The notes beneath the pieces were generated by a model. It was not told the DNA's origin and made no database searches. It worked only from the letters and a program-made list of their open reading frames with translations. A DNA stretch of 64,000 nucleotides from Amphiura filiformis (lineage: Eukaryota; Echinodermata; Ophiuroidea; Amphilepidida; Amphiuridae): positions 32,123,727-32,187,726 of the forward strand of contig NC_092628.1 in assembly GCF_039555335.1 (NCBI RefSeq), in the 5' to 3' direction. Position 1 is the stretch's first letter. The number at the start of each line of letters is the position of its first letter. This document shows, in pieces, positions 1-58,382 of the stretch. The position numbers and the translations under genes are program-made.

Positions 1-3000
1 AAGAGCTTGTACAGTTGCAAGATACTTTATTGCCAAGTCTTCAATTGATGTTGATAAAGTCAGACCACTTATCTGAAAGGGGAAATTATAGAATATTATG
101 ACTAGAATTCTGGTATGACCAGAGATGAAACAAACATGTCAAATAGTTTTTCCTGATATATGGAAATTGTCAAGAAATAATATATTTCTTCTCTATGGGT
201 ACTATTTGACAACTTTCCAATCTACAAACACAATCTGTTGAAAAAATGATAAATGCAAAATTGAATACAAAGAGAAATGTGAACGCTGCTTTTAACTTAT
301 GATCACATTTACTTTTTTGTTGAGATTTTAAAGAGTTTATATCCAACAGAAATAAAATGAAAACCCAGCATTCAAACGAATGCTCCTGTATATTCCTCTT
401 TATCCTCTTACCATTCCTGTAAGTGTAGGATCAGCTAGTGGTGACCTGTTTCCATGGTAATCAGGCCACACGTGTAAGTCTTTAGTAAGTGTTGCCGGTG
501 AGCTTGACCTCCTCAATGCAGCTATAGATGGTAGCATGTTGTTCAAGGACTCATAAATACTTTCACCACTAAGAAATAAAAAATAGTTAAAAGGGTAAAA
601 AATGTGATACACAATTTCTAGGTAAAAAGCTCTATAAAAATGCACTTTTATGCTCCACATTCTTTCCACATGTAGTTTAAACTATTACAAAGAAAACATT
701 TCGTGTCTGAGATGTCACGAGTAGTGGCTGATTGATGAATAGTGAAAACAGCTTTCTCTGCACAAGCCAACCTCCTCACTGATTTGACTATAATAATTCA
801 TTTGTACTAGTGCTAAATCAGCTTTTTTTAGTTAAGTTTGAACAAAATTGAAGACATTTTTTTTTCTGCTGACAGTTTTGGCAAACAACAGGATTGGACA
901 GAGAGGAGATACTACCATTTACATGGTTGCTGGCACATTGGGCTATTCCATTTAAAATCCACACTAACCCTGTGCAAGATTTAGCTTACGTCTTCCACAG
1001 AGGGAGTATAAATTTTGAATAGAATAGACAATTGGGTAACTTCTATTTGAAATTTGTAGAAGATATAGGTAAACCCATAATACAGAGGGAGTATGGGTTT
1101 CAAAATGATTAACTCTGACCAATTACATTTGAAAAACATACTCCCCCTGTGGAAGATATTTCCAAAATCTTCCACAAGGGTAGCATAGATTTTAAATGGA
1201 ATAGCCCAATTTTGTTCTTATTTATGTTTGTAACCTCTGCTCATCAAGACAACCTCAAGAGATGATTAGTCACATTTTGATGGAATAACAAAATTTTCCC
1301 ACTCCAAAATATGATCAATATAATTTTGAGAAAGCAAGATGTCACACAGCAAATCAGCAGAAAAAGACAGGGTTTTCCAGCAGCATTTGACAACTATACA
1401 CTTTAGTGATTAACGCCAACACTGGGTACATCTAGGTATCTAGGTATCAACTGTTTGTAATAACAAATTGATATCCATTTTTAAAGTAATAACATGCAAA
1501 TTTGTGAGGATTCTTCTTTAATCTCAAGGTACATATATGGGGCACATGATCGCTACGTGAAGCTCTGATGTCCACCCATCCCTTGCATTTTTCAGTTTTA
1601 GGTTCACTACTTCGCACATCTTGCATACTATTATCTGCCAGCACCCTACCTTTTTGAAGCTCTGTTCTCAAGCTCCTTGAAGGCTGGATGTGTGTGTAGC
1701 ACATGGTCAATTAATTTACCAGTGATACTCTGACCTCCTTCATTTGACCATAGCCCTGGGTGCATTGCACTATAGTATGGACCCCACACACCTGGTACAA
1801 ATAGAGGATCTTGGTTGACCTAAAGATGTAAAGAATGGGAGAAAAAATACAAAGCATGTGTTTTTGTAACAGATAAATTGGCTAAATCAATGAGGTATTG
1901 TACTCTGGTGTGGTGTAACAATGCAAATTTACATTAAGTCAATTTATTCTCATGAAAATTGAGCTACCTTGAAGTTTATCTCGACAAGGAACGTACTACT
2001 GACACGGGACTACTGATTGTCTTGCTGTTACCTGGATAAAACTCGGGGTGTTTATCCTGGCTGTGATAGTTATACTGTATAAGTGGTAATTTTCGCGAGA
2101 GTTTTATTTTCGCGAATTTCGCGATTAGAGCTCCAACCGCGAAAATAACACCTCGCGAATGTATGCAATAATGTATTACAAGTATAGGGAAGGACTGGGC
2201 AATCTCGAAAATAACATTTGCGAAAATGTGTCTCTAACTCCAAATCGCGAAAATAACTGTACGCGAAAATTACCACTTATACAGTATATTGCACAATTTT
2301 TATGATATCTGCTTCTTGGCTGAAATTCCATTATTATCTACTAAATTCCATTATTTAAGAAATAAAGGGTAATGCATTATCCTTTATCACGAAAAATAAT
2401 GTGTCGAGACAGTAAAACGTAAATAATGGGTGAGGCGCAGCCGAACCCATTATTTAAAAAGTTTTACTGCCGAGGACACATTATTTTGATGTAAAGGATA
2501 ATGCTGCACCCTTTATTTCTATTCTATTACCACAAAATAGTGCGATTAAAAGAGAAAATGTCACATTTTTTGCCCAAATATTTCATGTTGTTAACCTCAA
2601 GGTGGAGAGCATACGCGTAGCCAAAGCGTAAGTGATAGCGAGTATTACAGAACGCGTAACCAAGCGTAATGCTTTGCGTAGAATGCGTAACGATGCTAAT
2701 ATACTGCATCACCCTTTGCTGTGCGCTGTGATGCGAGAAGAACATAAAGTTCGTTGCCCTGGCCACTTTATTGCTAATTAATGGGCTTTCACGTGCGCGA
2801 TTTTGAATAATGGGTCGTGGAGGTAATAGAATAAGTTTTAAGTGTGCAGCTAGAGGCCACATGGGTTTGGCATAGCATACTATTATCAAAATCCTTTTTG
2901 AACAAAAGATGACATTGATGTCTCTCAGTGGCAGAAAACAAATTGATAGCCGATGTGTTCTTGAATCACATGATAAGATGCATATTGAATCAACTGTGGA

Positions 3001-6000
3001 CACATATGTTAGAGTGCCATTTTTACAATGCTAGTGCTGGCCTGACTCTACACCGGTAACTGTGGACAATAGCATTTTAATGCATTCTTATGCTGCTTTG
3101 GATCTACATGTAGAAACTCTCCAGAATTGCGGACATCTATGCATCCACAATATATGTGTCTTCTTGTTTGCAGGTGTTTACAAAAGCAGGCACACACACC
3201 CCCACACACATATGTGATGTGATCAAGCAAAATCAGTCGAAAGTCGGAAATACCGATTTTGAGATAAAGCCAAACAAAGGAAGGATTTCCTTCTGTTTCC
3301 TATTCTTTGGAAACTCTTGAACTGCTCTTCATATCTTTTGAAATGGTTGTCCAAATTCAATGGGGTTTACCCGGGTTTTCTGCAAAATGTAGCTTTGCAA
3401 ATGCTGTTTACAATCCAACTTCAGACTGATTTTGCTTGATCACACTGCATATCTTACCGCCATATGACAGGATAATGTTCCACAGATAAGGGGAAGACGG
3501 GATGTGATTGGCTTGTCTTGGCAGGGGAGGTTAAACCCTTCAACGTTGCCTGCCAGCATACCTGTCAATACATGCACACACACGCCCACCCAACACACAC
3601 AAACCCATATCTTACCGCCATATGACAGGATGATGTTCCACATATAATGGGAAGACGAGATGTGATTGGCTTGTCTTGGCAGGGGAGATTAAGTCCTTCA
3701 ACATTGCATGCCATCATACCTGTCAATACATACATATTTCTATTGTCAATGAAGTCATAAATTTACAAGTATTATTGTGCAACACTGTGTCAAGTTTTGC
3801 AACATAATTAGACAATAATAACTGCGCACCATCTATTTTGAGGTCATTGTGTGAAATCGGAGGGTTTTGTTTTGGGCTGAGGTATTTTTCGGAGGGAGGC
3901 CCAAAACAAAACCCGACAGTTTCACACAATGACCTCAAAATAGATGGTGCAAAGTTATTATTGTCATTCATTACCGTCGTATCTAATATTTTGAACAAAT
4001 CAAAATGGCATTTTATGTTATTTTATGCCATAAAAAGCTGTTAAATATAACCAGTTTTAATCATTTTTGTAACCTACCCTACAAAAAATCAACCAGGCGA
4101 ATATAACATTCGCGCCGACAACAAGAGCTACCAATCACAGAAGCGCGACGGCATCGCGTAGGCATGTGCGTTGCCATAACGCTGTAGCTTATATACGCAC
4201 GCCGCAGCAGAAGTCATTGTTGCGTCAGGAGTCATTGTGAGTTATTAATGACCTCGCAATTAGTGCGCGGTCAGGCAATCAATTTCTTTTGATTGGATTA
4301 CAGGCTTCGCGTATATTAATGAGGTTATGAATCATTATTAAAACATTGTTTATGTTTTCATTTTCTGTTTTTTATATTACATTGAGGCGTACCATTGAAA
4401 CAATACATTTCCGGATTGTTAAAACATATAATAATGTCTTACATGATACTTGCGGTTATGGTTACCACAATTCAATATGTATTTGTTCATGCCATCTACA
4501 AGAAACATATCTCAGGCATTACATTTTAGATTTTCAGTTTTGATGAAGAAAGATGGGAAATGAGGCTGTCTATCAGGTCACACCCTTTCAAGAGCCATTT
4601 CCTTACCTACACCTCCAGCATGTGCATCAATAATACCAGTACCAACAGCAGTCCCCTCACATAGACCCAACTCTTTGGCTGCCTCTGCAGTTAGTCCATT
4701 ACCAACAGGGGTTCCTGGTTCCAAAACTTCAGTTCCTAGTAAAAATAAGGCAAATAAGGCAATAAAGTTAGAGGAACACTAAATATTTGGGAAAACTCTT
4801 ATTCTGTGTGTTTATTTTGTTTAGCATAAGCACAGAAACATGATTGATTGATTGATTTAGTAATTAAGAATATAACATAAATTTTTGACCTACTCCTGTC
4901 CTATAACATGTGATGTGATCAAGCAAAATGAATCAGATGTTGGGATTGTTGATTTTGAGAAATAGCTCATAAATATTCAACTTCCTTTGCATTTTATTGT
5001 TCTGAGCAACACTAAGATGCCATATCTCTGGAACCGTAAATCTAATGATGATGGAGTTTTGAGCAAAATAAAACTTTGATAGCATTACACATATGGGCAG
5101 CAAATGCCAGGACACATTGCAAAATTCATTAGAATTATGCAAAGGAATTTATGGAGGAAATAATGATTGTTTTTTGAAGACCAAGAAAGGAACAATCTTG
5201 TTTGGTATGATTTTAAAGCTTGTGAAATAAGACTTTCAAATCTGACAGTCAATTTTATGCTCACCAGGTATGCTCATTTTATGAGGGCAAGTCAGATTTA
5301 GATATCACTTTCATGTAAGCATACTGAGAGTTAGCCTAGTGTCAAGACATGGATTATACAGCTTACACAATAATTAATAAATACTATATGAAATGCTAAT
5401 TTTGTGTAGTGCTTACATGATTGTTAGATTTAAATTTGTCCATTATTGTGTCAAAGTTACATCTGGAGATGCAATAAACATGCAAATGAATGATAGCTCC
5501 AAATTTTTACAATTCTTGTCATCTTTACACCAGGTAAACCCTTGCAAAATATATACAGATGATCCATGTAATTGACTTGGTATATTGTGTCAGACATTAA
5601 TGAACCATAATGACATTGAATTATTTTTCTGATGAGATGAGTGAGTCCACTCATTTCAAGTTTCAACCAATCAACCTTCCAGATACCTACCGACTCTTGC
5701 ATAGTTGTTTTCAATAAGATCCCCTAAACCAATCTGTTGCCAGAATGAATCATCCCAGTGTCTGGCACCCTCTGAGTCAGCCTGATAGGCCCACTTGCAA
5801 ACCAGAGTGCATAATGATCTGCAATTGAAGCAAACCTCTATTTACAGTAACAGTAGATGGGTCGATCCTCTTTTCATGTCTGATGTCAATTTGGTTAAAG
5901 TGCAACAAACCAATGTGCATGTGAAATATGATCACCACGCAAAACACATACAAAGTCCAGATTTATACCTTACCAGTTAAACAAAAAAAATTTCACTAGG

Positions 6001-9000
6001 CCTATATCACCTTGGCTAGGCAGTGCCATCGGTGCACAAATCATTGAGCCCAGCTTGAGGATTTGCACAAAGCACTGGTGTACAATGCACACATTTAAAG
6101 ACGCTGTGTACATGCGCGCAAAACAGATGCCTCATCGCGTTGATGTCACTGCCGCATCAAGAAGAAATTTAGTATAGAAGCATTTTTCTCTTTTGAAATA
6201 AGTGCAACTTTAATAGTAGAAATACTCATGCTACATTTATCAATTTTCATGCTTTATGATCTGTGGTTAAATATGAAATTGTTTATGCGGAAAAGTTATA
6301 AGTATTTGATGACATCATTACCTTGAGGTTGCACCTGTTGCTTTCCATGTCATAAAATCTGCTAGATCAAAAAAGTGTCCCGCTTTACTCCATGTGTTGG
6401 GCATATTCTGAAATAAAATCATAACATGACAATATATATTTGCGTAGGCTAAAAGCTAAAAACAAATACACTGGTAACAAACCGCAAATGAGGGCCAATT
6501 CCCTTCGTGAAATGCGAGACACAAAACTGCTATGCACACCGCATATTTTCAGTCTTTCACATAAACACGAAGACACAACCCTCTGTCTGTTGTTTAACAT
6601 GAAGCAACGCTGGCGTGATTTGTTAGAAAGCACGACTGAATGATCATCCCTCATGAATATGTGAGAATTCACAGCATACAAAGCACAGGGACTTCGGCTG
6701 TTGGTGAATAGTCTGTGGTTGAGACCTGTACCAAAGAAAGTGGCATTTCAGCATAATTTATGCTAAAAATAACACAGCACAGGGCAAAATTGTTCCAATG
6801 ACTTTTGTTTTGCATTAATTGTAGTACTCACCTGTTTCAACCACAGGAGCTTTGGTGGTTCCATTTCCAATGACATCTGACCTCCAACAAACTTCAATAC
6901 TTCATGTTTAGTTGCATTGATGCTATTGGCTTGAGCCTCTGCTCTATGGTCCATCCACATGATGATGTTTCTGGTGGGACAACCTTCAGGTCAAATGTCA
7001 AGATATATGGTTACAATAGAGGCCGTCAGCCTTTTCCGCGGGATCCGCCATCTTGTGGGTACTGCCGTTCTGTATGTCATGCGTTAGACATTACGCCCCC
7101 GATTACGCGTAAGTCGCAGCGCATTACGCACCTCTTCAGTCAAGCATGAACGCGGTGATCTTAGCAACAAGGCACTCCGTACCCACAAGATGGCGGCGTT
7201 GACGTGACAATGACTACCTCTATTGTCTAGTAAGACAATAGAAGTCAAAGGTCAAATAACATGCTGTACACATTCCAATGTAATAATTGATTCTGTAAAT
7301 TCAAAGTCTCAACTTGGTTTTTTAGGTTATGGTCTTGATGGCACAATGTTGAGGTCAAAAGTTGCAAGACATCTGGTATTTATCCCAGATGTTCCATATA
7401 ATATCTATAGAAATTGTAGGGACTGAGCTGCATGAATGAAGGCTTAAAAACCTCTAGTCTAAGGCTGAGATCTATGTTCTGTTCATGTGCAGATTTCTGA
7501 CATGTATGACTATGGGAAAACTACATTGTCAGTTTGATAATGTATGATCTTCCAATATGAATTGGTCCATTTTTTCTTCAAACCTTACATTTGGTTTATT
7601 TGTAATGTTTACACACATCCCAACTTATACTGAAATGGAATCGGCCAAATGTGTTGTTTGTCATGTAAACAGAGCAATTTTGACAATGGTGTAAATTTCA
7701 TGATAGTTAATAATATTAACGGCATTTATCCACGCTTTCTGAATACTCAGGTTCCTAAAAGCGTGCCACAGGTCGATATGCTGCCAAGCCCGAAAGGGCA
7801 GCGCAAGTTGACCTCAATGCTGAGTGTGACCGACAACAAGCCTGGGCTGATCCCCTGCTCTTTACAAAAAGGCCTGCAACTTTTACATGTCCAGATATTG
7901 CTCTTCTGGTACATGGGACCACCATTTTATGTGACTCTCCAAACCATGGCATGCTACATGTATGCACCCACTGTGGTGTTATTACGAATATATTATATCA
8001 GCAGTTTGAGATCAAATGTGATGGAAATCATACATTATGGCTTGAACACACTCTGATGTATTCCATATTTTTATATTCTTAACCTGCTTCACCCTCCCCC
8101 CTCCATTCTCCTCTAATTCTTCCTTTCCCCCCCCCCCCCCTATCCTCAAAGCTTACCTATTGGGCTTACTGTAATTGACTGGAACTTATCATCTAGCACT
8201 ACCAAGGAACACGTAGCATCAAAACCAACCCCTTTCACCTTCTCTGGATTGATGTCACCAACAGCACCCTATAGCATAGGTAAGAAAGTTAGCCTACAAT
8301 GTAGTATAAAGCACATTAGTTGAATACAGGGCTGAGAGTAAGAGGCATTACATCACCATTGGATCAAATATTGAGCTGTGAACAAACAAGCATGCATACA
8401 GCTCATCAGGTGTTCAAATCAACATACATGTACCCCTATCCCCCCCCCCCCTTTGCAGGCCATGGGGAATTTAGGAATGTCATTCCTGGGAAATTTGGTC
8501 ATCTGGGAGGAAACTATGCTTTTTTTTTTATAAAGAAATACATTAGAAATGGTAGGAAATCCTGATATTTTGAAGGGAAATGTGTCTACATTCCTGGGAA
8601 ATGAATATTTGTTTCCACTTCCAGGCCTGCTCCCTTGTATCAAAGAAATTCAAAGTTAGGTAGAGACTCAATTTGGATATTAAATTAATCTCTAGTAACC
8701 ACTGGTATCCACAGAATACTACCATCACCTTAAATAGCTACATGTACCTTTCATGTATTACAATTTTACATGCTTGTGCAAAACTGATATTATTTACTTT
8801 CCTTTTTTTTCTTCATTTAACATTCTTGCCTATATGTTACAATATGCTGATAATCGTACCAAAATTAGCCCCAGCTCTTATATGTGTACATCCATATCAA
8901 AAGCGATGCATTTGTCGGCTGCTACATGTGTCTCATTTCACATAATAGTTAGGAATAAATACCAGACTCATATCAGTGTAGGTCACTTCAAATCATCCCA

Positions 9001-10393
9001 AGTCAAATTGTATAAGAAATATTATCTGTATTCCTAAACCACGTGACTTGGGATAATTTGAAGTGACCTCCACTTCGGAGATGAGTCTGGTATTTATTCC
9101 TAGTTATTATGTGAAATGAGACACATGTAGCAGCCGACAAGTGCATCCTTTTGATATGGATGTACACATATGTGACCCGCTCTGAGTGAAAAAACCAGTA
9201 ACAAGTCGCATTTTTGACATTTCATGATTTGAATTTTAAAATGTAAGCACTAGACAAGTATATATAAGTAGCATCAATACTTTTCAAGATATGGATAATT
9301 TTGTAAATGATACCTTGATATTTTGGCCAAATTGCTATTCTGAGTAATGGGCCAATTAGTTTCCTGCCTTACACAGGATTGAATATATGGATTATCATAG
9401 TTCAACTGTTATTTATTGATTAAATAAACCTCTTTTTTAATAAGTACTTTCAAGGATTTGAAAGTCCACTTAGTCCCACAGTCAAATACCATGATAATAA
9501 GAATTCCAATTTTTTTTTTTTTATGGGAATGTCATCTTTAAAGGCCTATAACTCAAAAATATGTCTGGCGACTTGTTCCGGGTTTTGTTGGAGCTGGTCA
9601 CATATATGAAAATATTCATGTTCCATTATTAGACAAGGAAAAAAAAAGAGAAAAAAAAAGAACTTCAGTGATATTTTACTATAGTTCATTTGGCTTCCTC
9701 GAGGAAGTGACTTCAGTGCTTTGTGCTTGCTGCCACGTACCACCTTTGATCGCGCATGAAAAAATGCCAGTTCTTTGAGTCAACGCACACAATTTAATAA
9801 CTATGTGCATTGAACCATGCACTGATGTCACTCTCTCTTGCATAAGATAACAGCTTTATAATCTTGCATATTGTCTTTAATGACCACTGAAGTTAATTAT
9901 TTTATTGAAAAGGCATCTACCATGCAGCAAGTATGCCTTGTTAAAGTGCTGCTTCCTGGGAACATAATCTAAACAGTCTATGATCTAAATCGCCTTGTTA
10001 GAGCAAAATATCCCACAATTTCTTTAAATGTATTTCTTTACTAAATGACAAAAATTCTCTCTAAATGGGAAAATATCCCTAGAATAGCAAGCAAGCAAGG
10101 AAGCAAGCAAGCAAGCAAACCAACAAAGAAACAAAGAAACAAACAAACAACAACAACAACAAAAACAAACAAGCAAGCAAACAAACCTTCACAGCTGTCC
10201 TGCATGCCTCCCATATATTGTCTGATGATTGCTCATAGTAACCAGGCTGAGGCTCAAAAATTTTGATTCCGTGTTGACAAGTTTTGAGTATAGTACCGCT
10301 AGCATCTACCAAGGCAGCACGGACACTTCCTGTACCAACATCAACACCAACGAACAAGTCTCCTTGAATGATGTCTGCATCTGTTGCAGCCAT
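1..10393 (-). CDS. FGGY: FGGY carbohydrate kinase domain-containing protein (partial; C-terminus outside window)
   Basis: Cytosolic sugar kinase of the FGGY family; vertebrate FGGY is reported to phosphorylate D-ribulose. Coding exons, all phases agreeing: 10187..10393, 8157..8268, 6832..6983, 6322..6407, 5691..5818, 4607..4735, one of 3616..3719 or 3458..3561, 1650..1819, 412..568, and 1..72 (cut by the window). This gives 439 residues; by comparison with the 551-residue human protein roughly the last 130 are missing. Seen: N-terminal phosphate loop [15 protein letters not shown] (about residues 16-30), [25 protein letters not shown], the catalytic-base motif IDAHAGG (Asp about 265), [10 protein letters not shown] at the start of the ATP domain, and [17 protein letters not shown]. 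The ATG at 10393 is the first base of its exon, directly after a TTGCAG acceptor, so a 5' UTR exon must lie upstream; I cannot place it. Introns hold MITEs at 937-1210, 2075-2284, 3811-3965, 7013-7226, 8881-9170 and 9169-9604. Confidence 0.95.
937..1210. mobile_element. Palindromic MITE in FGGY intron
   Basis: The ends ATTGGGCTAT and ATAGCCCAAT are inverted copies, and both arms carry CTTCCACA/TGTGGAAG and TTTAAAAT/ATTTTAAA words. About 274 bp, no coding capacity. A more diverged relative with the same sort of words lies near 47310-47440. Confidence 0.7.
2075..2284. mobile_element. TA-flanked MITE with CTGTATAAGTGG ends
   Basis: 210-bp element beginning CTGTATAAGTGGTAATTTTC and ending with its reverse complement, flanked by TA on both sides, as expected for a mariner-type target duplication. 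Interior rich in CGCGAAAATAA words. A truncated relative of the same family lies at 10661-10797. Confidence 0.8.
2360..2519. repeat. Imperfect palindrome, about 160 bp
   Basis: AAATAAAGGGTAATGCATTATCC is matched in reverse complement by GGATAATGCTGCACCCTTTATTT (both shortened in the arms), and the inner parts ACAGTAAAAC/GTTTTACTG also pair. MITE-like; within an FGGY intron. Confidence 0.6.
3458..3561 (-). CDS. FGGY: FGGY duplicated exon, 3' copy (copy A)
   Basis: Second 104-bp copy, same phases and same splice-site words as copy B, offset by 158 bp. By my reading about ten nucleotides and five of 35 residues differ. One change turns the conserved GTS loop to GTL (about residue 301). There is no stop or broken splice site, so it looks usable. 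The intron between the two copies would be only 54 bp and TG-rich, which may be too short to splice, favouring either/or use. Confidence 0.85.
3616..3719 (-). CDS. FGGY: FGGY duplicated exon, 5' copy (copy B)
   Basis: 104-bp exon encoding residues of about 272-306. It enters in phase 1 from the 4607..4735 exon and leaves in phase 0. It keeps the [10 protein letters not shown]-domain loop found in vertebrate FGGY. The acceptor context is ATTGACAG and the donor GCG|GTAAGA. Because the length is not a multiple of three, only one of the two copies can be included without shifting the frame. Confidence 0.88.
3811..3965. repeat. Strong hairpin, about 155 bp, beside the duplicated FGGY exons
   Basis: GACAATAATAACT through the arm word CACCATCTATTTTGAGGTCA is mirrored by TGACCTCAAAATAGATGGTG and AGTTATTATTGTC. 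The inner arm GGGTTTTGTTTTGGGC pairs with GCCCAAAACAAAACCC. It lies about 90 bp upstream of duplicated exon copy B in gene orientation. Confidence 0.75.
7013..7226. mobile_element. Inverted-repeat MITE, about 214 bp
   Basis: Ends ACAATAGAGG and CCTCTATTGT are reverse complements; further in, GCCATCTTGTGGGTAC pairs with GTACCCACAAGATGGC. The element starts 30 bp upstream of the FGGY exon at 6832..6983. Confidence 0.7.
8881..9170. mobile_element. Long palindromic element, about 290 bp
   Basis: Arms of more than 100 bases: TATGTGTACATCCATATCAA pairs with TTGATATGGATGTACACATA, followed by matching GTCGGCTG, AATAAATACCAGACTCAT and CAAGTCA segments. Within the first FGGY coding intron, touching the next element. 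Confidence 0.75.
9169..9604. mobile_element. Inverted-repeat MITE with TATGTGACC ends, about 436 bp
   Basis: Left end TATGTGACC..AACAAGTCGC is matched in inverse by GCGACTTGTT..GGTCACATA on the right. Non-coding interior. A MITE with similar GTGACCTGCC ends occurs in FBXO4 at 49401-49637. Confidence 0.65.
10079..10186. repeat. Microsatellite (AAGC/AAAC/AAC)n abutting an FGGY splice donor
   Basis: Runs of CAAG, AAAC and AAC repeats begin immediately at the exon edge at 10187. On the gene strand the intron opens GTTTGT and continues into TTGC/TTTG repeats, so the 5' splice site itself lies inside the simple repeat. Confidence 0.9.
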
Positions 10394-10660
10394 CTGCAAG
10401 AGAGATATCATAAAGCTAAATAAATAAACAAACAAAATTAATAAAAACAAACAAAAGGTTTTTTCCCTGTAAGATACTCTCATTTTATTTCATGATCATT
10501 TTGCCATGTAGGCCTATACTTGATTAATTTTCTTATTTGAGAAATCCAAGAAAAATGCTAATTTCATGCATAAAATCCTAAAGAAAATTATTTTTCTCAG
10601 TTTGTTTACAATCAAGAAACATGATATCAATTTTTAATCAAGAAACATGAAATCAATACT

Positions 10661-10797
10661 GCATAAGTGGTAATTTTCATGAGGGTTTTATTTTCGAATT
10701 TAGCGATTAGAGCTCCAACCATGAAAATAACACCTCGCGAATGTATGCAATAATGTATTACAAGTATAGGGAAGGACTGGGCAATCGCGAAAATAAA
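10661..10797. mobile_element. Truncated copy of the 2075-2284 MITE
   Basis: Carries the left end and the unique middle (AGAGCTCCAACC ... GGGAAGGACTGGGCAATC) of the 2075-2284 element but lacks the right terminal repeat. Confidence 0.75.
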
Positions 10798-11718
10798 ATT
10801 TAACTAATAATTAAAACTTTTGAAACCATTTTTCATATCAATAGAACTTACTTTGCAACTGATTTTACAATATCATTTTAATTTGTAACATATTTTACCA
10901 CAAATCCTGATACACATTATACACCCACCCTACCCCTATACCTAAATTAACTTTCAATATTACCGTATTCGTCCGAGTATAGTCCCACGTTCGAGTATAG
11001 TCCCACCCCCCATTTTTCGAAAAAATGGGGGGGGGTAGCAACAACAATTTTTTCATGGCGATGCGTGAGATTTTACTCAATTTTCAGCTTTTTGCGTGAG
11101 ATTTACTTTTAGGCGTGAGATTATACTACCTTGGCGTGAGACCGTGAGAAATTAATTGACCCAATGCGTGAGACTCACGGCCAATGCGTGACAGCGTGAG
11201 AGTTGACAGCCCTGAATAAAGAGAGATGACTACTTTGAATTCATTGAGCTACATGTATATATGCAAGTTATTATTCTTGGGTGATCAGAAGGTGTGCTGA
11301 CATTTTTAAAAAAGCGACCTGGTGCAATCTACAGGACAAGATGGATGGCAATTCGGTGGAGCATGATAAAAAACATCCACAGTCCATAGTGGGAATCTAG
11401 TGCCGTACTATTACGCTGACTTTCGTATTCGGCGAGGAGGACGATTTCGACCTCCTGGTTTGTTTGCAAACAGAGAGGTAGACAAAAGACCGTTCCGCTT
11501 GTCCAAACACTCAAGTATCAGAAGGATGGTCCACAATAGCGTGATTCACGTAACATGAATAGGAGTGCTAATAGGGATTAAAAAGCTGTCACGTAGAACC
11601 ATGTGCTTCTTTTTTTTGTCCAATTTGCCATCAAGATTTCATATGGAAACAGTTCAGACCCAGTACACTGATCATTTCAGAAATTAATATTTTGTTCTGG
11701 GTCTGATTATTCGGACTA

Positions 11719-11955
11719 GTGGGAATCGGATCATGATCGAGGGCCCGAGATATGGCCGCATGAACAATACCTAAATTAATTAGCCCCATTGAAATCATTG
11801 TAAATTGGCCTGGTTCCAAACAGTTATGAACCATGCAGGCCAATTTACACTGTCCACTGATTTCAATGGCGGCATTGTCAATAATGCCTAATTAGGTATT
11901 CCCGGGAGGTATTCATGCGGCCATATCTCGGCCCTCATGATCCGATTCCCACCAA
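11719..11955. repeat. Inverted repeat at the left edge of the tandem duplication
   Basis: GTGGGAATCGGATCATGATC pairs with GATCATGAGGG..CGATTCCCAC-type sequence near 11930-11955 and CCGAGATATGGCCGCATGAA with TTCATGCGGCCATATCTCGG; inner arms AGCCCCATTGAAATC and GATTTCAATGGCGG also pair. The left arm lies outside the duplicated unit, so copy 2 has only the right part. Confidence 0.65.
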
Positions 11956-14900
11956 ATTTGGACTGTGGATGTTTTACAGCATGTTCTACTGAAATATGGT
12001 CATGAAAATGCTGAAATGCAAAAAGAAACTTTTATGACGTCACACTTCGGTACTCTTATGCGATATATATGCATGTCACATCATCATGTGCATGCAATGC
12101 AATCACTGCATCACATCATGTCATTCATGCCTTTTGCAAATACGGTAGATACGCCTCGCGCCTGTCGTGTCTGCAGAACTGAGACAAATATACCTGATGA
12201 AGAGTCTGTTATCAGTTTTTTTATCTCTCGATTATATAATAACAATATTCCCAAATAAAGGGCTCAATTGTTAAACATACCTTTACAACAGCTTCAGGTG
12301 ATAAACTAACTTCAAAAATTTGAGAGAAGGAAGCAGGTCCCACTCATAAGCTTACTCTCCACTTCCACCAGCTTCCACACGACCACACGGTGCTCTCAGC
12401 TGGTGTAGCCACTAGCCTAACTCGCCCTATAACAAAATCGTCCCGGTCGCGCAGTCACTCACTGCCAAGTGCCCCGCCAAGTGCACTGATTTATAATCCC
12501 AAAACAATCTTAACAATTTTATTTAGAAGTAGGCCTATAGGACCTATTAGAGGTATAAAATGTTACTTTAAAAGAGAGGGGTGATTGTGTGTAAAAAACT
12601 TTAAAAGGGGGGGGTCTTTGGTAGGCCTATAGTATTAATTTTAAGACGAGGGTTTCCTGGTTCAGACCTATTTTTGGCCACATCATTTTGAAAAAGGATC
12701 ATCGTCCGTTGTCAAAAAACTTGGAGCGAAATTTTATTTTATTACAATACAATTTCATGAAATTAGGGAATATGAAAGTTTGTTCAAGTTATTTTTAATG
12801 GCAATTGATCCCAAAACAATCTTAACACTTTAAATGCTAATAAAACTACCATATTCAGAAGTAGGCCTATAGGGCCTATTAGAGGTATAAAATGTTACTT
12901 TAAAAGAGAGGGGTGATTGTGTGTAAAAAACTTTAAAAGGGGGGTCTTTGGTAGGCCTGTAGCATTAATTTTAAAACGGAGTTACCCGGTTAGGCCTATT
13001 TTTGGCCACATCATTTTGAAAAAGGATCATCGTCCGTTGTCAAAAAACTTGGAGTGAAATTTTATTTTATTACAATAAAATTTCATGAAATTAGGGAATA
13101 TGAAAGTTTGTTCAAGTTGTTTTTAATGGCATTTGAAATTCTATTAAAAATTTAGAAGGGGCTTTGAAGCATTAAAAAGATAGGGACATCCGACATTGCG
13201 ACATCGTACAGAACTTCTAGGCCTAGTATAGCCGCAGTTCAAAATTAATTTGTACTGGTGTAGATTTCTTTTTGACATGGGGGGGGGGATGAGGTTGGAA
13301 AAATTCATCCAGCACCTTTGGCAACAGTATAATGTTATAGTACAAATGCGCGCGAAGCGAGCGAAAAATATTGCCATATTGAAGCTAATCTGGTCAAAAT
13401 ATGGTGCGAAAGTGGATGGCCAAATATGAGGTGGTAAAAACCCACATACAGGCGTTAACATTGGACGAGTCGTAGTCGAGACCAACGTAAAGCACCCAAT
13501 TTTATCATTATTATGTGTGGATCCAATATTTTCACACACTTGGATTCATCAAAACCTAAATTAATTAGCCCCATTGAAATCATTGTAAATTGGCCTGGTT
13601 CCAAACAGTTATGAACCATGCAGGCCAATTTACACTGTCCACTGATTTCAATGGCGGCATTGTCAATAATGCCTAATTAGGTATTCCCGGGAGGTATTCA
13701 TGCGGCCATATCTCGGGCCCTCATGATCCGATTCCCACCAAATTTGGACTGTGGATGTTTTTCATCATGTTCTACTGAAATATGGTCATGAAAATGCTGA
13801 AATGCAAAAAAGAAACTTTTATGACGTCACACTTCGGTACTCTTATGCGATATATATGCATGTCACATCATCATGTGCATGCAATGCAATCAATGCATCA
13901 CATCATGTCATTCATGCATTTTGCAAATACGGTAGATACGCCTAGCGCCTGTCGTGTCTGCAGAACTGAGACAAATATACCTGATGAAGAGTCTGTTATC
14001 AGTTTTTTTATCACTCGATTATATAATAACAATATTCCCAAATAAAGGGCTCAATTGTTAAACATACCTTTACAACAGCTTCAGGTGATAAACTAACTTC
14101 AAAAATTTGAGAGAAGGAAGCAGGTCCCACTCATAAGCTTACTCTCCACTTCCACCAGCTTCCACACGACCACACGGTGCTCTCAGCTGGTGTAGCCACT
14201 AGCCTAACTCGCCCTATAACAAAATCGTCCCGGTCGCGCAGTCACTCACTGCCAAGTGCCCCGCCAAGTGCACTGATTTATAATCCCAAAACAATCTTAA
14301 CAATTTTATTTAGAAGTAGGCCTATAGGACCTATTAGAGGTATAAAATGTTACTTTAAAAGAGAGGGGTGATTGTGTGTAAAAAAACTTTAAAAGGGGGG
14401 GTCTTTGGTAGGCCTATAGTATTAATTTTAAAACGGGGGTTTCCTGGTTCAGACCTATTTTTGGCCACATCATTTTGAAAAAGGATCATCGTCCGTTGTC
14501 AAAAAACTTGGAGCGAAATTTTATTTTATTACAATACAATTTCATGAAATTAGGGAATATGAAAGTTTGTTCAAGTTATTTTTAATGGCAATTGATCCCA
14601 AAACAATCTTAACACTTTAAATGCGAATAAAACTACCATATTCAGAAGTAGGCCTATAGGGCCTATTAGAGGTATAAAATGTTACTTTAAAAGAGAGGGG
14701 TGATTGTGTGTAAAAAACTTTAAAAGGGGGGGGGTCTTTGGTAGGCCTGTAGCATTAATTTTAAAACGGGAGTTACCCGGGTTAGGCCTATTTTTGGCCA
14801 CATCATTTTGAAAAAGGATCATCGTCCGTTGTCAAAAAACTTGGAGTGAAATTTTATTTTATTACAATAAAATTTCATGAAATTAGGGAATATGAAAGTT

Positions 14901-15345
14901 TGTTCAAGTTGTTTTTAATGGCATTTGAAATTCTATTAAAAATTTAGAAGGGCTTTGAAGCATTAAAAGATAGGGACATCCGACATTGCGACATCGTACA
15001 GAACTTCTAGGCCTAGTATAGCCGCAGTTCAAAATTAATTTGTACTGGTGTAGATCTCGGTTTGTCGCCGTAGGGGGATGAGGTTGGAAAAATTCATCCA
15101 GCACCTTTGGCAACAGTATAATGTTATAGTACAAATGCGCGCGAAGCGAGCGAAAAATATTGCCATATTGAAGCTAATCTGGTCAAAATATGGTGCGAAA
15201 GTGGATGGCCAAATATGAGGTGGTAAAAAACCCACATACAGGCGTTAACATTGGACGAGTCGTAGTCGAGACCAACGTAAAGCACCCAATTTTATCATTA
15301 TTATGTGTGGATCCAATATTTTCACACACTTGGATTCATCAAAAC
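11769..15345 (+). repeat. 1.79-kb direct tandem duplication (two copies)
   Basis: Copy 1 runs 11769..13553 and copy 2 13554..15345, both starting ACCTAAATTAATTAGCCCC and ending CTTGGATTCATCAAAAC. The two differ by scattered substitutions and a short replacement near 13268 versus 15057, so the duplication is recent. Each copy also contains an internal direct repeat of about 300 bp (from near 12520 and 12830 in copy 1) with the words AGTAGGCCTATAG and AGAGGTATAAAATG. No gene is seen in it. Confidence 0.9.
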
Positions 15346-49209: not shown

Positions 49210-52200
49210 TCATCTTCTATTTGTAGCCTCCAATAGCCATGTGATTCCTTCCACAACACCAGATAATGTTGACACATTGGCATCAAACATCTGCAAGGCA
49301 ATAGTGGAAACAAAGTGATGATTAGAGCATTGTGTCAAGATGTAAAGGTTACATATTCCTTAAAAGCCTTAATCATAGATCTATTCAATCTATTCTAAGA
49401 TGTGACCTGCCATTACGAAATGAGTGCAAAGTCGCAAGTTGGTATAGTTTCAGAACACCCTGGCTACTGCCTTGGTGGTCTTTGTTTCCTTTGTGAATGG
49501 CCCATTCACAAATGACATACAGACATACTTCTAGCTTCAACAGGTGCCAGGCAAACAAAGCCCTTCAACTCAGTCAGCCTGAATGTCTTGAAACTACCAA
49601 CTTGTGACTTTATACTCATTTGTTATGGCAGGTCACATATATTGCCCACTGTACAAGAACTCCCAATCCACTTGACATTTTGCACTTCATATAGCAATTG
49701 TAAGAAGTTTTTATTTATTTAATCATTTCATTTACCTTCCAAGTTCTGTTAATCCTATGCATAGCTAGTTGTTCTGCTACATCCACACATGGTATTTTAC
49801 TGCTTTCACAGTCAGGCACACATGATAATATAAGTAATGGAGCCTTATTTGGAGTCCATCTTTCACTCATCATGGCAAAGAGCTCCGGTCTGCCTTCTGG
49901 TACTGTTTGAAAAAAAAAAAGTATGGAGATATTTAGTTTGGCTGGAATTTAACAGATCAGGCATAGCTCAAAACACCTGTACATACAAGAAAGTGGTTGT
50001 TTTGGATTCATTTAGCCAAAACCCCAAGTGCTATGTGTTTCTAGTTTGTTTATTTTTCCCTCGGAAAAGGCTGTGCTGATGCATATTTATTTGCCTGCAG
50101 TTAAATTTCATTTCTGAAGATTAAAAACAAAACCCAAGCTCAAAAAAATGTGCTTAAAGTTAAATGTAATTTTTTAAAAAACCTATGCGCATGGGAAGCT
50201 GAGACAAACCTGGGGGTGGGGGGGGGGCTAATTGCTATCTAATATCCAGGTGTATCGTAACACCAGCCAGCATGCCAGTGGTACGCAATTCTGTTATCAA
50301 TTATCATGCCGATACAATTTCAGCAGTGCCTGCCCCTCTGGCAGGTATCAATTCAAATGTCAGGCCGATTAATTTTGAAGCTGGACTGGTAGCTTTTTAT
50401 CTGTCTGACTGATGTAGTTCATGTAGGCCTAAAGCCTTGCTTAAAACAATAATAACAATAACAACAACATCACTGTTTGCCTTACCACAGTGGCATTTTT
50501 CTCTAAAACAACAACAATACTGCTTGCCTTGGAACAGTGGCATATTTTTTATCTTAAAGATAAAGATGTATCCATAAAAATGTTGTGATCAAAATCCAAT
50601 ACTCATCTTTTCTTTTACATTGTACATGATCAAAATTAACTGAGACCCACTTTCCCACATGAACACAGTTTAAGAACAGGCAATAGGTACTTAGGGTCTC
50701 CTCATAAACTTGTCATTTCAGAACCCAGACTAGGGGTCTCCTCATAAACTTGTCATTCAGAACCCAGACTAGGGGTCTCCTCATAAACTTGTCATTCAGA
50801 ACCCAGACTAGGGGTCTCCTCATAAACTTGTCATTTCAGAACCCAGACTGACAAACCCCTTGGGAAGTGAAGCAGAAAAGTAGTTGCCATGATTTGACTT
50901 ACATTCTTCTACCGATGCAGATGAGTCAACAACAAATATGAATGCATCTGTACCACTGCACAAGTCTCTGACGGCCGGGATGGGCTCATATTTCAGATCA
51001 GTCTCATCACCATCTGGGTTATTGCTAGCAGCTGTTGGTCTTAATAACTTATTCCTGTCTGCTCTGGTTGCATTTGGTATGTTCACATTTGTTCTGTCTC
51101 TCCTGAAAAATTGATCAAGATTATTCATTAATATTATAACAATGGTCTCTCCTGAAAAATTGGTGATGGTTATTTATTATTATAACAATTATATGGTCTC
51201 TCCTGAAAAATTGGTCAAAGTTATTCATTATTATAAGAATGGTCCATAACAACATGCTTGTATTTGCTTGCTTGAAAATTTTTTGACCTATATGAAATAG
51301 AATATGGAATATGCTTTTCTAGATGGTTGGATTTAAACATGGGGGGGCACTTAACACAAATGACCATACGGGTATGCTCCCCCGCAAAGACTCTTGATTT
51401 TGTTTTGTTTTTCAGCTCTAAAAGACCCCAAAATTGCTCATTTCTCATATATCTGGTTTTTCCAGGAGATTTTCAACCAAAAAGTCAAGAAAGACCCTTG
51501 ATTTTGACTGTTCGCAGCTCCAAAAGCTCCCATTTTACTTGTTTGCCATCAGCTCCCAAAGACCCACCTCCTCGAAATTCCGGGGGAGCATACCCACCAT
51601 TTTTTTTTGATGTGCCCCCCCTGGATTTAAACTGAAAGTAAAATAATATAATTTAGACTCATCAAATTGATTGTAGTTCTTACTTTGTTCCAGAGTACAG
51701 GGTGATAAGTCCGAGTTGTGCTTTGTTGTTCATTGAAATGTTGAAGCCTGTGCCAACACCTGAAACCAATAATAACAAAATTAGTACAAATGAACCATTG
51801 TCGATTGTCTTATTCATAAGATATAGGCCTGGGGTATAGGTAAAGATTTTTATTTCACTTTATTCCCACAATAGCAACATTGCCATTACACTGTATTACT
51901 TGTCACTTGAAGAAAATGGTCTGCTTTATTTTTTTTTTCAAAATTTAAAACAAAACAATGAACCCTCTTAATAATTTGCACTTACTGATGTATTTCTTTT
52001 GTCGACAACTTGTCGTCATGTAAATGTCAACAATGAAAATTCTACTTGACAACAGGCCTAAAAAATATATGTTTAATAACAAACTCAGTCAAAAGCTCAA
52101 TTTTGATACAACTGCGCAATCTTAATGCATTAACATATGTTTCTTAGTTGTCAGCCCAGAGAGCATCAGTCTATTTATAACAGATAGATCTATTCAAAAT

Positions 52201-55200
52201 ACAACTACCTGGTTGTGAAGCTGGAAACATTCCTTGATATTGAAATATGCCCGACTCATCGTTACCGATTAGTTTGTGAACAATTTTTGATGTATCTGAG
52301 TCCAAGCCAGGCCCAAACATGACCACCTTAGGTGCTTTGTGAGGTATGAATGACCACAGGAATCTTGGAATGGATAGAATATCAAATTGTTCCTGTCTTG
52401 CACAATGGGGGTTGCATCGCATGTATCTATGGAAACAAAAAAGAAAATACAAAATGTTGTAAATTGACACTATAGTATTGCAACTGAAGGGACAAGTTTT
52501 CAGAGATGGTATTGACAACTTAATAATGTGCCAACAGTGCAGAATAATTTACCTGTTTAATAATTTGAAATATGTTGCCACACAGTGTCGACTTCCTATT
52601 CGATAAATATAAATTTAATACTCCGTTGGTGAGCGACAGGCGACTGGTATTTCACCGAACGCAAGAAAAGGAGTTCTATCTGATTGGCTAGCAATCGATC
52701 GCTTAGGTCGCTTAGTAGTCAACTACAAACTCAAAACTGAGCATCGTATTCAATTCGATTGAAATCGATATTCTATTATTGCCGTAGATAAAGAGAGTGA
52801 TAGTGTGTCAATAATGTACATTGTATTGCAGCTGGATTTTACATGCATTCTTTTCTCAAAGAGTTGAATATGATCAAAATCTTTACTCAGGATTTCAAAT
52901 TTTTACCCGCAAATTGCAGTTAAACATATCCACAGCAAAATACCGGTCCTCACTAATTAGTGTATTTAATTTCCAGTTAGTGTATTTAAGATAAAACCTG
53001 ACAACAAATAAAATTTTCTTGCAATAGAAATATCATATGGGATACTGATATGGTAGGTCGCAACCGCCTAACGTGGAGCTGCTACTGCCGTAGCTGACTT
53101 TTTGCTCCGTGGAGCCAAATTGACCAATCATGATCATGTTAGAGTTTTTCATTACTCGGAGGTAAAACTGACTAATTAAGTACGACTTAATCATTACGTG
53201 AAGCAAATTTATTCATTAAGAATTTGCCAGACGAGCGTCACGTAGTTGCAAGATATCCTCGGTCACGAAAGTTATGATTCAAAAAGTAGTTTATGAAAAG
53301 TACGAACTGACTTATTATTAAGATGGACATGCACTCATAAGAAACTCATACAGTATTGTACATAACTATATAGCTAGGCAGAGTGGTGGTAAACTATGCA
53401 CACAGTTCTGCGATCTGCAGTGTATCGCCGGGAGCTAATTTGTATAACTTATGCGGTGTCCCTGCGTGAATTCGACCTTCAGCAAACTGCAAACCAGTTC
53501 GGATTTACTTTATATACTAGTAGTAGGCCATACATACTGTAGTTACTGTCCGTTTTCCTATACACAATACTCAGTGCGCTCACACGTGACCTCTACAAAT
53601 AGTTTATGTTAGAAGTATAGGCCATTGCCTAGTTGACGCGTCACTACTGTGTAAAAAATAACCGCCAATATTTAAAGTATTCTCTGAAATTCTAGAAAAT
53701 ATAGTTTTGTAACATGTCCTAAATTTTAGCTAATTTAGGTGTTTGGAAATATTGGTACTTTTGTACCAAAAAATATGAAGAAATTATTTCTAAACCGTGT
53801 TAAGTCATTAAGCTTCTCATTTTCAAGAACGCTGGTTAACAATAAGCAGACTATTGTCTCATTTCAGTAAACAAAAGCCCACAGTATTGTTACCTTGCGT
53901 TCGCTTTATAATCGTTCACCCAACTGAAACTATAATACCAGCTCATTGCTCATTGCACAGGTAAAACAGACACAAGTGCAGTGTGTATTTAACCAGAGAA
54001 GATCTGATGTAACATAGTTGAGCCGTTTTCATTGAGTGTTATCTTGGTTTAATAGCTTTTAATAGGGTTTAAGTCCTTCAAAGGTCGTGGTGAGTTCTAC
54101 TGTAAACATGACTGCATCATGATTATTTTTAAGTCAACAACATTCAACAATATGATCACCGTGATAGTATGAGAGTATCAGTACCGTGGGTGTCAGTGAT
54201 CCTGGCCTGACACAGTAGACAAACAAACAAACAAACACGCCACACACATGACACATGCATGCAAGGTAACATTGACTTTGCTCGAGAAACGCTAGCTACG
54301 AATTTGCTCACGGATGCCCTCGCATTCGTAGCTAAGCGCCCTCGAGTATCTGAATGCAGTGCGGAATAAACATGTAAATAACACCGTATACTTAATACAA
54401 TAGGCCACTTACTGCTTCAATAAGCATACCCTCAAATACCACTTTCCACATAACATGACCTACCAATTTGTTACTATACACGTTCCCAACATAACTCTCA
54501 GTAATATCAGATTTCAAGTGCAATTGCGTGGATATTTCATCACTAAAATTGCTCCCATTTTTCCATTGATCGGCGATGATTCAACTGTCAGTTCACGAAA
54601 TAAAATTTACTGTTGTTTCTAGTTTGTAATTTCAATTTCCCTAGACATGTGTATTAATAAACAAAACTCTTAAAAATAATAAATTTTTCTAATTGCTACT
54701 GACAGTATATCGGAAATTACTTCTTCATTAACTGCTGATTTGTTTTTGGACTATTTTATAAGACTATATCAATATTTTGTATTGTTAAATTAGGTTTGTA
54801 CTAAAAACACTAAAACTAATTGCTCATCACGTGAGCCTGTTACGTCGATAATATTCTCAACCCCACAAAACGTTATTCAGTCATTAATAAGCACAATTTA
54901 CGTGTGTGAAATGCCCTCGTAGGTTAAGACTGTTTCACCATCAGCACGGCGCAAACGGCTACAATAATAATAGCATGTGCAGGCCGGATCCAGCTCTGAA
55001 AAACTTGCGAATATTTAGCTGATATTTCCTTTATAATGTTAGGATCGTATGCATCGAAAGTGCAAACAGGCAGGTAATAGTACAATAAAACTTATATAAT
55101 GACACGCTTATTAATATGTGCTGGTGAAGTAAGCCAATACATAGCATTTTTATCAGTCATGTCACTTTGTTTATATCCCGATGCATTTTTATACACGGGT

Positions 55201-57870: not shown

Positions 57871-58382
57871 ATTTATGATATAAATGATAAATCTCTTTTC
57901 AGATCTAAAAAGCGTCTACGTTAAAGAACCAGCAGGACTCAAATGTTTCCTTTCCCAAATCCTGGTCCGGTCTGTCAGTGTCATCGGTAAGCTTAATTTA
58001 GATGCATGTGTCATTCCAGATACGTGTACGGATCCACGTCATGCACGTGGAAGTTTGTTTTGTAAACAAAAAAGTCAAAGTATCTCTAGGATCAAGAATA
58101 CAAATATTTTTAAAAGTAAACAACAAAAACGAATTTTTCAATAAAAAAATCTAAAAATTATTTGTAAAATAATATCCTTGCTTTACAATGCTTTAAATAT
58201 GAAAAAACTGTTTTGCAAAAGAAATTACCAGCATGTATTTTAGATTTAATTTCATTATAGGTAAAAACACAATTGACCCAGTTTCCAATCAATTACAATT
58301 TACTTCCGGGTTAAAATTTCACGCGAATGCACGCGTTTTGACGAGATTTGGTCTTTTGCACCGAGGCCATTACGGTACCAAG
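57871..58382. promoter_or_regulatory. Shared upstream region of divergent FBXO4 and RPL37
   Basis: Only 512 bases separate the two start codons on opposite strands, so the 5' UTRs and promoters of both must lie here. No TATA box stands out. CTTTT at 58353-58357 is a candidate start for an RPL37 transcript of the oligopyrimidine (TOP) type, by family expectation. Confidence 0.6.

Follow-up and report, generated by a model that had tools for sequence, protein, structure and literature searches.

The 64,000-nt stretch of Amphiura filiformis DNA analysed here (the window) contains, on its reverse strand, a gene whose predicted product is an FGGY-family pentulose kinase (TIGR01315; PDB 3gg4/3l0q). 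The gene model was rebuilt by eye from the reading frames. It has GT-AG introns with compatible phases and ten exon positions, and the seventh of these is doubled. The richness of the gene in introns points to an animal, as do pieces nearby that resemble ribosomal protein L37 and FBXO4. The 5′ copy was named exon 7A (A) and the 3′ copy exon 7B (B). The features of the gene are listed below in the direction of transcription.

10187..10393, reverse strand: exon 1, coding part, with the ATG at 10393 (gene model)
8157..8268, reverse strand: exon 2 (gene model)
6832..6983, reverse strand: exon 3 (gene model)
6322..6407, reverse strand: exon 4 (gene model)
5691..5818, reverse strand: exon 5 (gene model)
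4607..4735, reverse strand: exon 6, upstream of the pair, ending in phase 1 (gene model and frame check)
3616..3719, reverse strand: exon 7A (5′ copy), 104 nt, phase 1 in and phase 0 out, encoding G and 34 residues (first codon shared)
3562..3615, reverse strand: 54-nt intron between the copies, UG-rich, with no A at nt 9–42
3458..3561, reverse strand: exon 7B (3′ copy), 104 nt, phase 1 in and phase 0 out, encoding G and 34 residues
3210..3452, reverse strand: inverted-repeat (MITE-like) insertion, 243 bp, its first base at intron position +6 after exon 7B
3187..3209, reverse strand: GT-rich stretch, read as the intron tail of the second copy displaced by the insertion; it resembles the 54-nt intron (86% over 3187–3208)
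1650..1819, reverse strand: exon 8, downstream of the pair, beginning in phase 0 (gene model and frame check)
412..568, reverse strand: exon 9 (gene model)
1..72, reverse strand: exon 10, cut by the window end, the gene continuing outside (gene model)

The kinase and its paired exon

The product encoded within the window has 439 residues. The gene leaves the window at position 1, so that the C-terminal part lies beyond the window end, and is otherwise intact inside it. With exon A the product scored 581 bits against the TIGR01315 profile (residues 14–439) and with exon B 574 bits, the curated cut-off being 408.7 bits, which bears out the assignment to the FGGY kinases made in the first-pass annotation. 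The best PDB match was 3gg4 (3gg4/3l0q), with an E value of 2.2e-145. From family membership, a D-ribulokinase-like activity phosphorylating D-ribulose would be expected. The 67 relatives of the kinase used below are bacterial loci from genome contigs and served for residue conservation only. Viral contigs scanned for animal relatives with the kinase protein and an exact 23-nt exon pattern gave no match.

Exons A and B start 158 bp apart and differ at 10 of 104 nt (90.4% identity). In each case the flanking splice words are TGTATTGACAG upstream and GTAAGATATG downstream. Exon A encodes GTSSCHM and exon B encodes GTLSCHM. Lengths, phases, shared splice words, spacing, the 54-bp intron and the two motifs had all been given in the first-pass annotation and agree with our coordinates and translations. 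Exon 6 is joined to exon 8 in frame through either copy alone. Inclusion of both copies, or of neither, shifts the frame, as had been predicted, and leads to a stop in exon 8, and retention of the 54-nt intron brings in an in-frame TGA. One copy at a time is therefore supported as the only productive outcome. This outcome follows from an exon length of 3n+2 (104 nt) and would be the same for any such duplication.

Mutually exclusive exons were judged as in PMC5740500, that is, as adjacent homologous internal exons of like length and frame whose joint inclusion is prevented or unproductive. The kinase pair consists of such adjacent exons (104/104 nt, phases 1 and 0), and its joint inclusion is blocked or unproductive through the short intron and the frame shift with its stop. 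As to their own splice signals, both copies have intact donors and AGs; A has a TTGAC at −27, and B has only far candidates. Among 629 mutually exclusive clusters in a human set, 60% contain exons of a length not divisible by three and 9% have a short donor-to-branch-point distance (PMC5740500).

Five of the ten changes from A to B alter residues, namely M274L, C276G, L281F, I296L and S301L. The column of S301, a residue of the GTS phosphate loop, holds Ser in 66 of the 67 bacterial relatives, with a gap in one, and S301 is invariant when isoform A is aligned with 16 of these relatives. When replacements were placed singly in A and scored with the profile of the 67 relatives, S301L cost 4.7 bits, while the other four were neutral, at −0.4 to +0.1 bits each. 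The profile deficit of B, 4.2 bits, comes nearly all from S301L. At position 274, Leu is found in 40 of the 67 relatives and Met in none; B has the commonest residue there and A has not, so A may also have changed.

It had been suggested that the gene could make one active and one dead kinase. As a firm inference, death of the 3′ copy through S301L was rejected. In the six paralogues of E. coli K-12, column 301 is Ser in AraB and XylB, Gly in GlpK, Trp in RhaB and FucK, and Phe in LsrK. Since other FGGY kinases vary at this column, loss of activity in B does not follow from the change; judged from the alignments, Leu301 is unusual for the subfamily and is no proof of an inactive enzyme. Ser243 of the D-ribulose kinase from Synechococcus probably corresponds to T300 of the product, not S301. 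This serine holds the beta-phosphate in the Synechococcus enzyme (PMC4880283).

The duplicated unit and the insertion behind exon B

The longest direct repeat in the region 2500–4800 is a 129-nt repeat at 91% identity (3448–3576 and 3606–3734). BLAST within the window gave this pair an E value of 3e-47, and it is therefore not due to chance. Upstream, the homology ends 15 nt before the exon (at 3734 and 3576), short of the TTGAC at −27 of A. On these boundaries, the repeat is read as a real 158-bp tandem duplication, whose unit would comprise exon 7 with about 15 nt of intron 6 before it and about 39 nt of the following intron behind it. BLAST of the unit across the window at E ≤ 1e-3 revealed no further relic copies beyond the two. 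Past the 158-bp unit the flanking introns have no tandem copy, only dispersed or inverted repeats being found there. The duplication event itself is unremarkable, because the window has five other tandem arrays with units of 93–333 bp.

Between A and B, dN was 0.066 and dS 0.252, a ratio of 0.26, with a synonymous excess of p = 0.046 (Fisher, one-sided) that applies to both lineages together. Under neutrality, at least five synonymous codons among ten substitutions would occur with a probability of 0.048. Constraint on A together with neutral evolution of B was not rejected as a model (P = 0.21–0.27 for five or fewer nonsynonymous of 10). The splice-proximal intron has no differences in 21 nt; the probability of this is 0.12 if the exon rate applies, and 0.012 if the rate is set to 0.19. 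Selective constraint on B is hinted at by these figures, and with a dS of about 0.25 the duplication looks young.

The MITE-like insertion behind exon B (3452–3210) has 39-nt arms that are 85% complementary, and as RNA it is predicted to form a strong hairpin from donor position +6 (z = −5.45). When it was removed in silico, the GT-rich tail came to adjoin the donor of B. Of 8,528 positions sampled, this tail was the best non-self match of the 33-nt intron tail of A, scoring 16 as against 14 for the next unrelated site, and 2,000 shuffles gave no score as high. GT-rich sequence is simple and the margin is small, so we regard the match as support rather than proof. It suggests that removal restores a clean 158-bp tandem duplication and that the insertion is later than the duplication. 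In intron 5, at 4908–4949, the terminal sequence of this MITE-like element is present again (22 nt at 100%, 36 nt at 86%).

Splice signals of the two copies

The branch-point candidate of exon A, TTGAC at −27, lies outside the duplicated unit. Exon B has no adenine 15–45 nt upstream. Among the 6,653 AGs of the window (both strands), only two lack an A at −45 to −15, and the acceptor of B is one of them. The repeat boundaries, the reading frames and this missing adenine are read directly from the DNA. In the 54-nt intron, adenines are found at +3, +4, +6 and +8 and again at +43, +47, +51 and +53, the latter within 12 nt of the acceptor. A donor-to-branch-point limit of 50 nt has been given (PMC7969005), and no adenine of the intron combines this distance with a normal position. 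Since no more than about 15 nt of the upstream intron were included in the duplication, B would be without the native branch point.

Branch points were also scored with a matrix that is rough and was not trained on the source species. Within 60 nt upstream, the best score for B was 1.03, whereas the other nine acceptors in the gene reached 3.0–6.0. When the search was restricted to −45 to −15, the nine scored 2.7–6.0 and B had no candidate. Of the window AGs, 46 of 6,653 (both strands) score as low as the acceptor of B or lower. The matrix is imperfect elsewhere in the same gene: the best site of exon 5 (3.0) has two AGs in between, and the best site of exon 8 is at −10.

Pyrimidine content is 0.41 in front of A and 0.47 in front of B, the poorest acceptors of the gene, and 0.53–0.82 at the other eight. 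Being common to both copies, the pyrimidine weakness is, by this comparison, old. Upstream of B, a UG-rich tract occupies the usual place of the pyrimidines. Two remote branch-point candidates for B were found inside exon A, at −62 (GTCAT, 3.1) and at −102 (ATCAC, 3.7), each with one AG between it and the acceptor. A branch point for B inside exon A would mean that A itself is excluded, as in OGDH.

The predicted fold of the two exons with the intron between them is no better than that of shuffled sequence (z = 0.65), 73 of 100 shuffles doing as well, which gives no sign of an RNA-structure switch there. Docking/selector pairing was considered for an intron 6 stretch (4122–4139), which is 78% complementary to one and the same 18-nt segment in A and in B. 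It was rejected as evidence, since the two exons, being copies, match the stretch alike and, by our estimate, a region this large would contain such a complementarity by chance.

Use of the two exons

The explanation we favour, with modest confidence, is a tandem duplication in which A is the default exon and B replaces it rarely or never, giving at most a minor S301L isoform. In this reading, the 158-bp tandem duplication arose within an FGGY pentulose-kinase (D-ribulokinase-like) gene of an animal. The upstream intron of copy A would be the native one, branch point included, and copy B would have been born behind the GT-rich tail of A, with no normally placed branch point. The MITE-like hairpin would have inserted later, directly behind the donor of B. 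Joining of A to B would be unproductive, the 54-nt intron being too short and the frame broken, so B could only replace A and probably does so seldom or never. We infer the default use of A, the rarity of B and this order of events from the signals described above. Since B has no normally placed branch point and a hairpin insertion lies at +6 of its intron, A is probably the default and B minor or silent. Some findings count against this: the frame of B is kept, the 21 nt of splice-proximal intron are identical, synonymous changes are over-represented, and exon A contains far branch-point candidates. In OGDH, exons of this kind are served by distant branch points (PMC7969005).

The first-pass annotation took either/or splicing as the simplest reading. 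This stands for the productive outcome, on the frames and the short intron. It does not extend to regulated use, against which the missing adenine and the UG-rich tract in front of B both speak. Regulated mutually exclusive exons, with both copies used according to tissue or state and B relying on a distant branch point close to or within exon A, would yield two kinases differing at the phosphate loop, the choice being enforced by steric exclusion together with the frame. The frame logic and the 54-nt intron are consistent with this, as are the identical 21 nt of splice-proximal intron, the synonymous excess and the bulky residues at column 301 of other FGGY kinases, and there are precedents in OGDH 4a/4b, FYN at its ATP site and Khk 3A/3C (PMC7969005, PMC9741552, PMC6464065). 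However, the acceptor of B is poor in pyrimidines as well as lacking the adenine, the distant branch points of OGDH accompany long pyrimidine tracts that are absent here (PMC7969005), and S301L replaces a residue that is invariant wherever the close relatives can be read at this site. On balance we consider regulated use unlikely.

A more specific proposal carries a smaller chance still. In a young pair with B spliced through a branch point at or inside A, the adenine-free UG-rich tract would be a CELF/TDP-43-type site. A UG-binding protein could then make the cell change over from the Ser301 kinase to a Leu301 form that handles phosphate differently; we rate this combination as improbable.

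The pair might also be an assembly error in which two haplotypes of one exon were strung together at the GT-rich tract. The breakpoints do lie in GT-rich, microsatellite-like sequence, and the MITE-like insertion is found behind just one copy, as would suit an allelic insertion. Yet an exon divergence of 9.6% with five amino-acid changes would be high for alleles, the flanking introns lack a tandem copy past the unit, and other tandem arrays occur in the same window, all of which make such an error very improbable. We give even less credence to a switch in which joined or retained copies create a premature stop and nonsense-mediated decay tunes the kinase level. Transcripts with both exons, with neither or with the intron retained would all carry stops, but splicing of A to B looks sterically and chemically poor, nothing was found that points to selection for such an outcome, and the stops are a property of any duplicated exon of a length not divisible by 3.

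We know of no duplicated exon in the FGGY pentulose kinase family. Ketohexokinase (Khk) lies outside the FGGY kinases, and its exon pair consists of tandem duplicates. Among the matches listed in a search of the open-access literature, covering titles and abstract openings, none reports the duplication described here. Like the present gene, Khk is a sugar kinase gene with two either/or exons, 3A and 3C, that give isoforms; unlike here, both isoforms have been demonstrated in tissues (PMC6464065). OGDH 4a/4b resembles the kinase pair as a metabolic enzyme with neighbouring either/or exons and an intron whose donor-to-branch-point distance is below about 50 nt, its branch points at 25–41 nt from the donor enforcing the exon choice (PMC7969005). 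It differs in that the distant branch points of exon 4b were mapped experimentally and have long pyrimidine tracts (PMC7969005), whereas the kinase pair has a UG-rich tract with no A at nt 9–42 and is known from DNA alone. In FYN, too, a tandem duplicated exon spans part of the nucleotide-binding site, although FYN is a protein tyrosine kinase and both of its isoforms are known (PMC9741552). Exon 10 of oyster AOX is likewise a tandem duplication with alternative use in an invertebrate metabolic enzyme; in contrast to exon 7, it is a terminal exon, its copies are more diverged (63.5% in C. virginica), its transcripts are demonstrated and the choice is made through an alternative 3′ splice site (PMC5589949).

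Tandem exon duplication is one of the principal origins of mutually exclusive exons, and most of the human examples that have been studied well are old (PMC9741552). The kinase pair is a real and apparently young duplication of this known kind. Its boundaries show why a new copy need not be a usable exon, the acceptor AG having been carried along and the branch point left behind. Should B be used at all, it would allow a clear test of how new exons acquire their branch points and of how the phosphate loop of FGGY kinases copes with Leu. Should it not be used, it would be a duplicated exon of the ordinary sort, one that predictors working from coding frame and length would class as mutually exclusive.

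Several other features were noted in the window. Intron 6 holds, 92 nt upstream of exon 7A, a 155-bp foldback (3811–3965) with 67-nt arms at 91% complementarity and no other copy in the window. A dispersed 'TTCGCG'-type repeat in intron 7 (2071–2220) recurs at 10656–10801 and 56991–57077, the copies matching at 93% over 148 nt and 82% over 87 nt. A long segment at 11634–14368 is apparently duplicated with a spacing of about 1.79 kb and has near-identical ORFs at 11634–12581 and 13458–14368, each copy being followed by tandem repeats of about 330 bp. The palindrome TAGGCCTA occurs 14 times in the window as against 0.54 expected, and 10 of the occurrences lie at 12.5–15.0 kb (12530–15015) in a duplicated repeat block. 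Exon pieces named by eye resemble ribosomal protein L37 (59823–59954, forward strand) and an F-box protein of the FBXO4 type (50823–57915, reverse strand).
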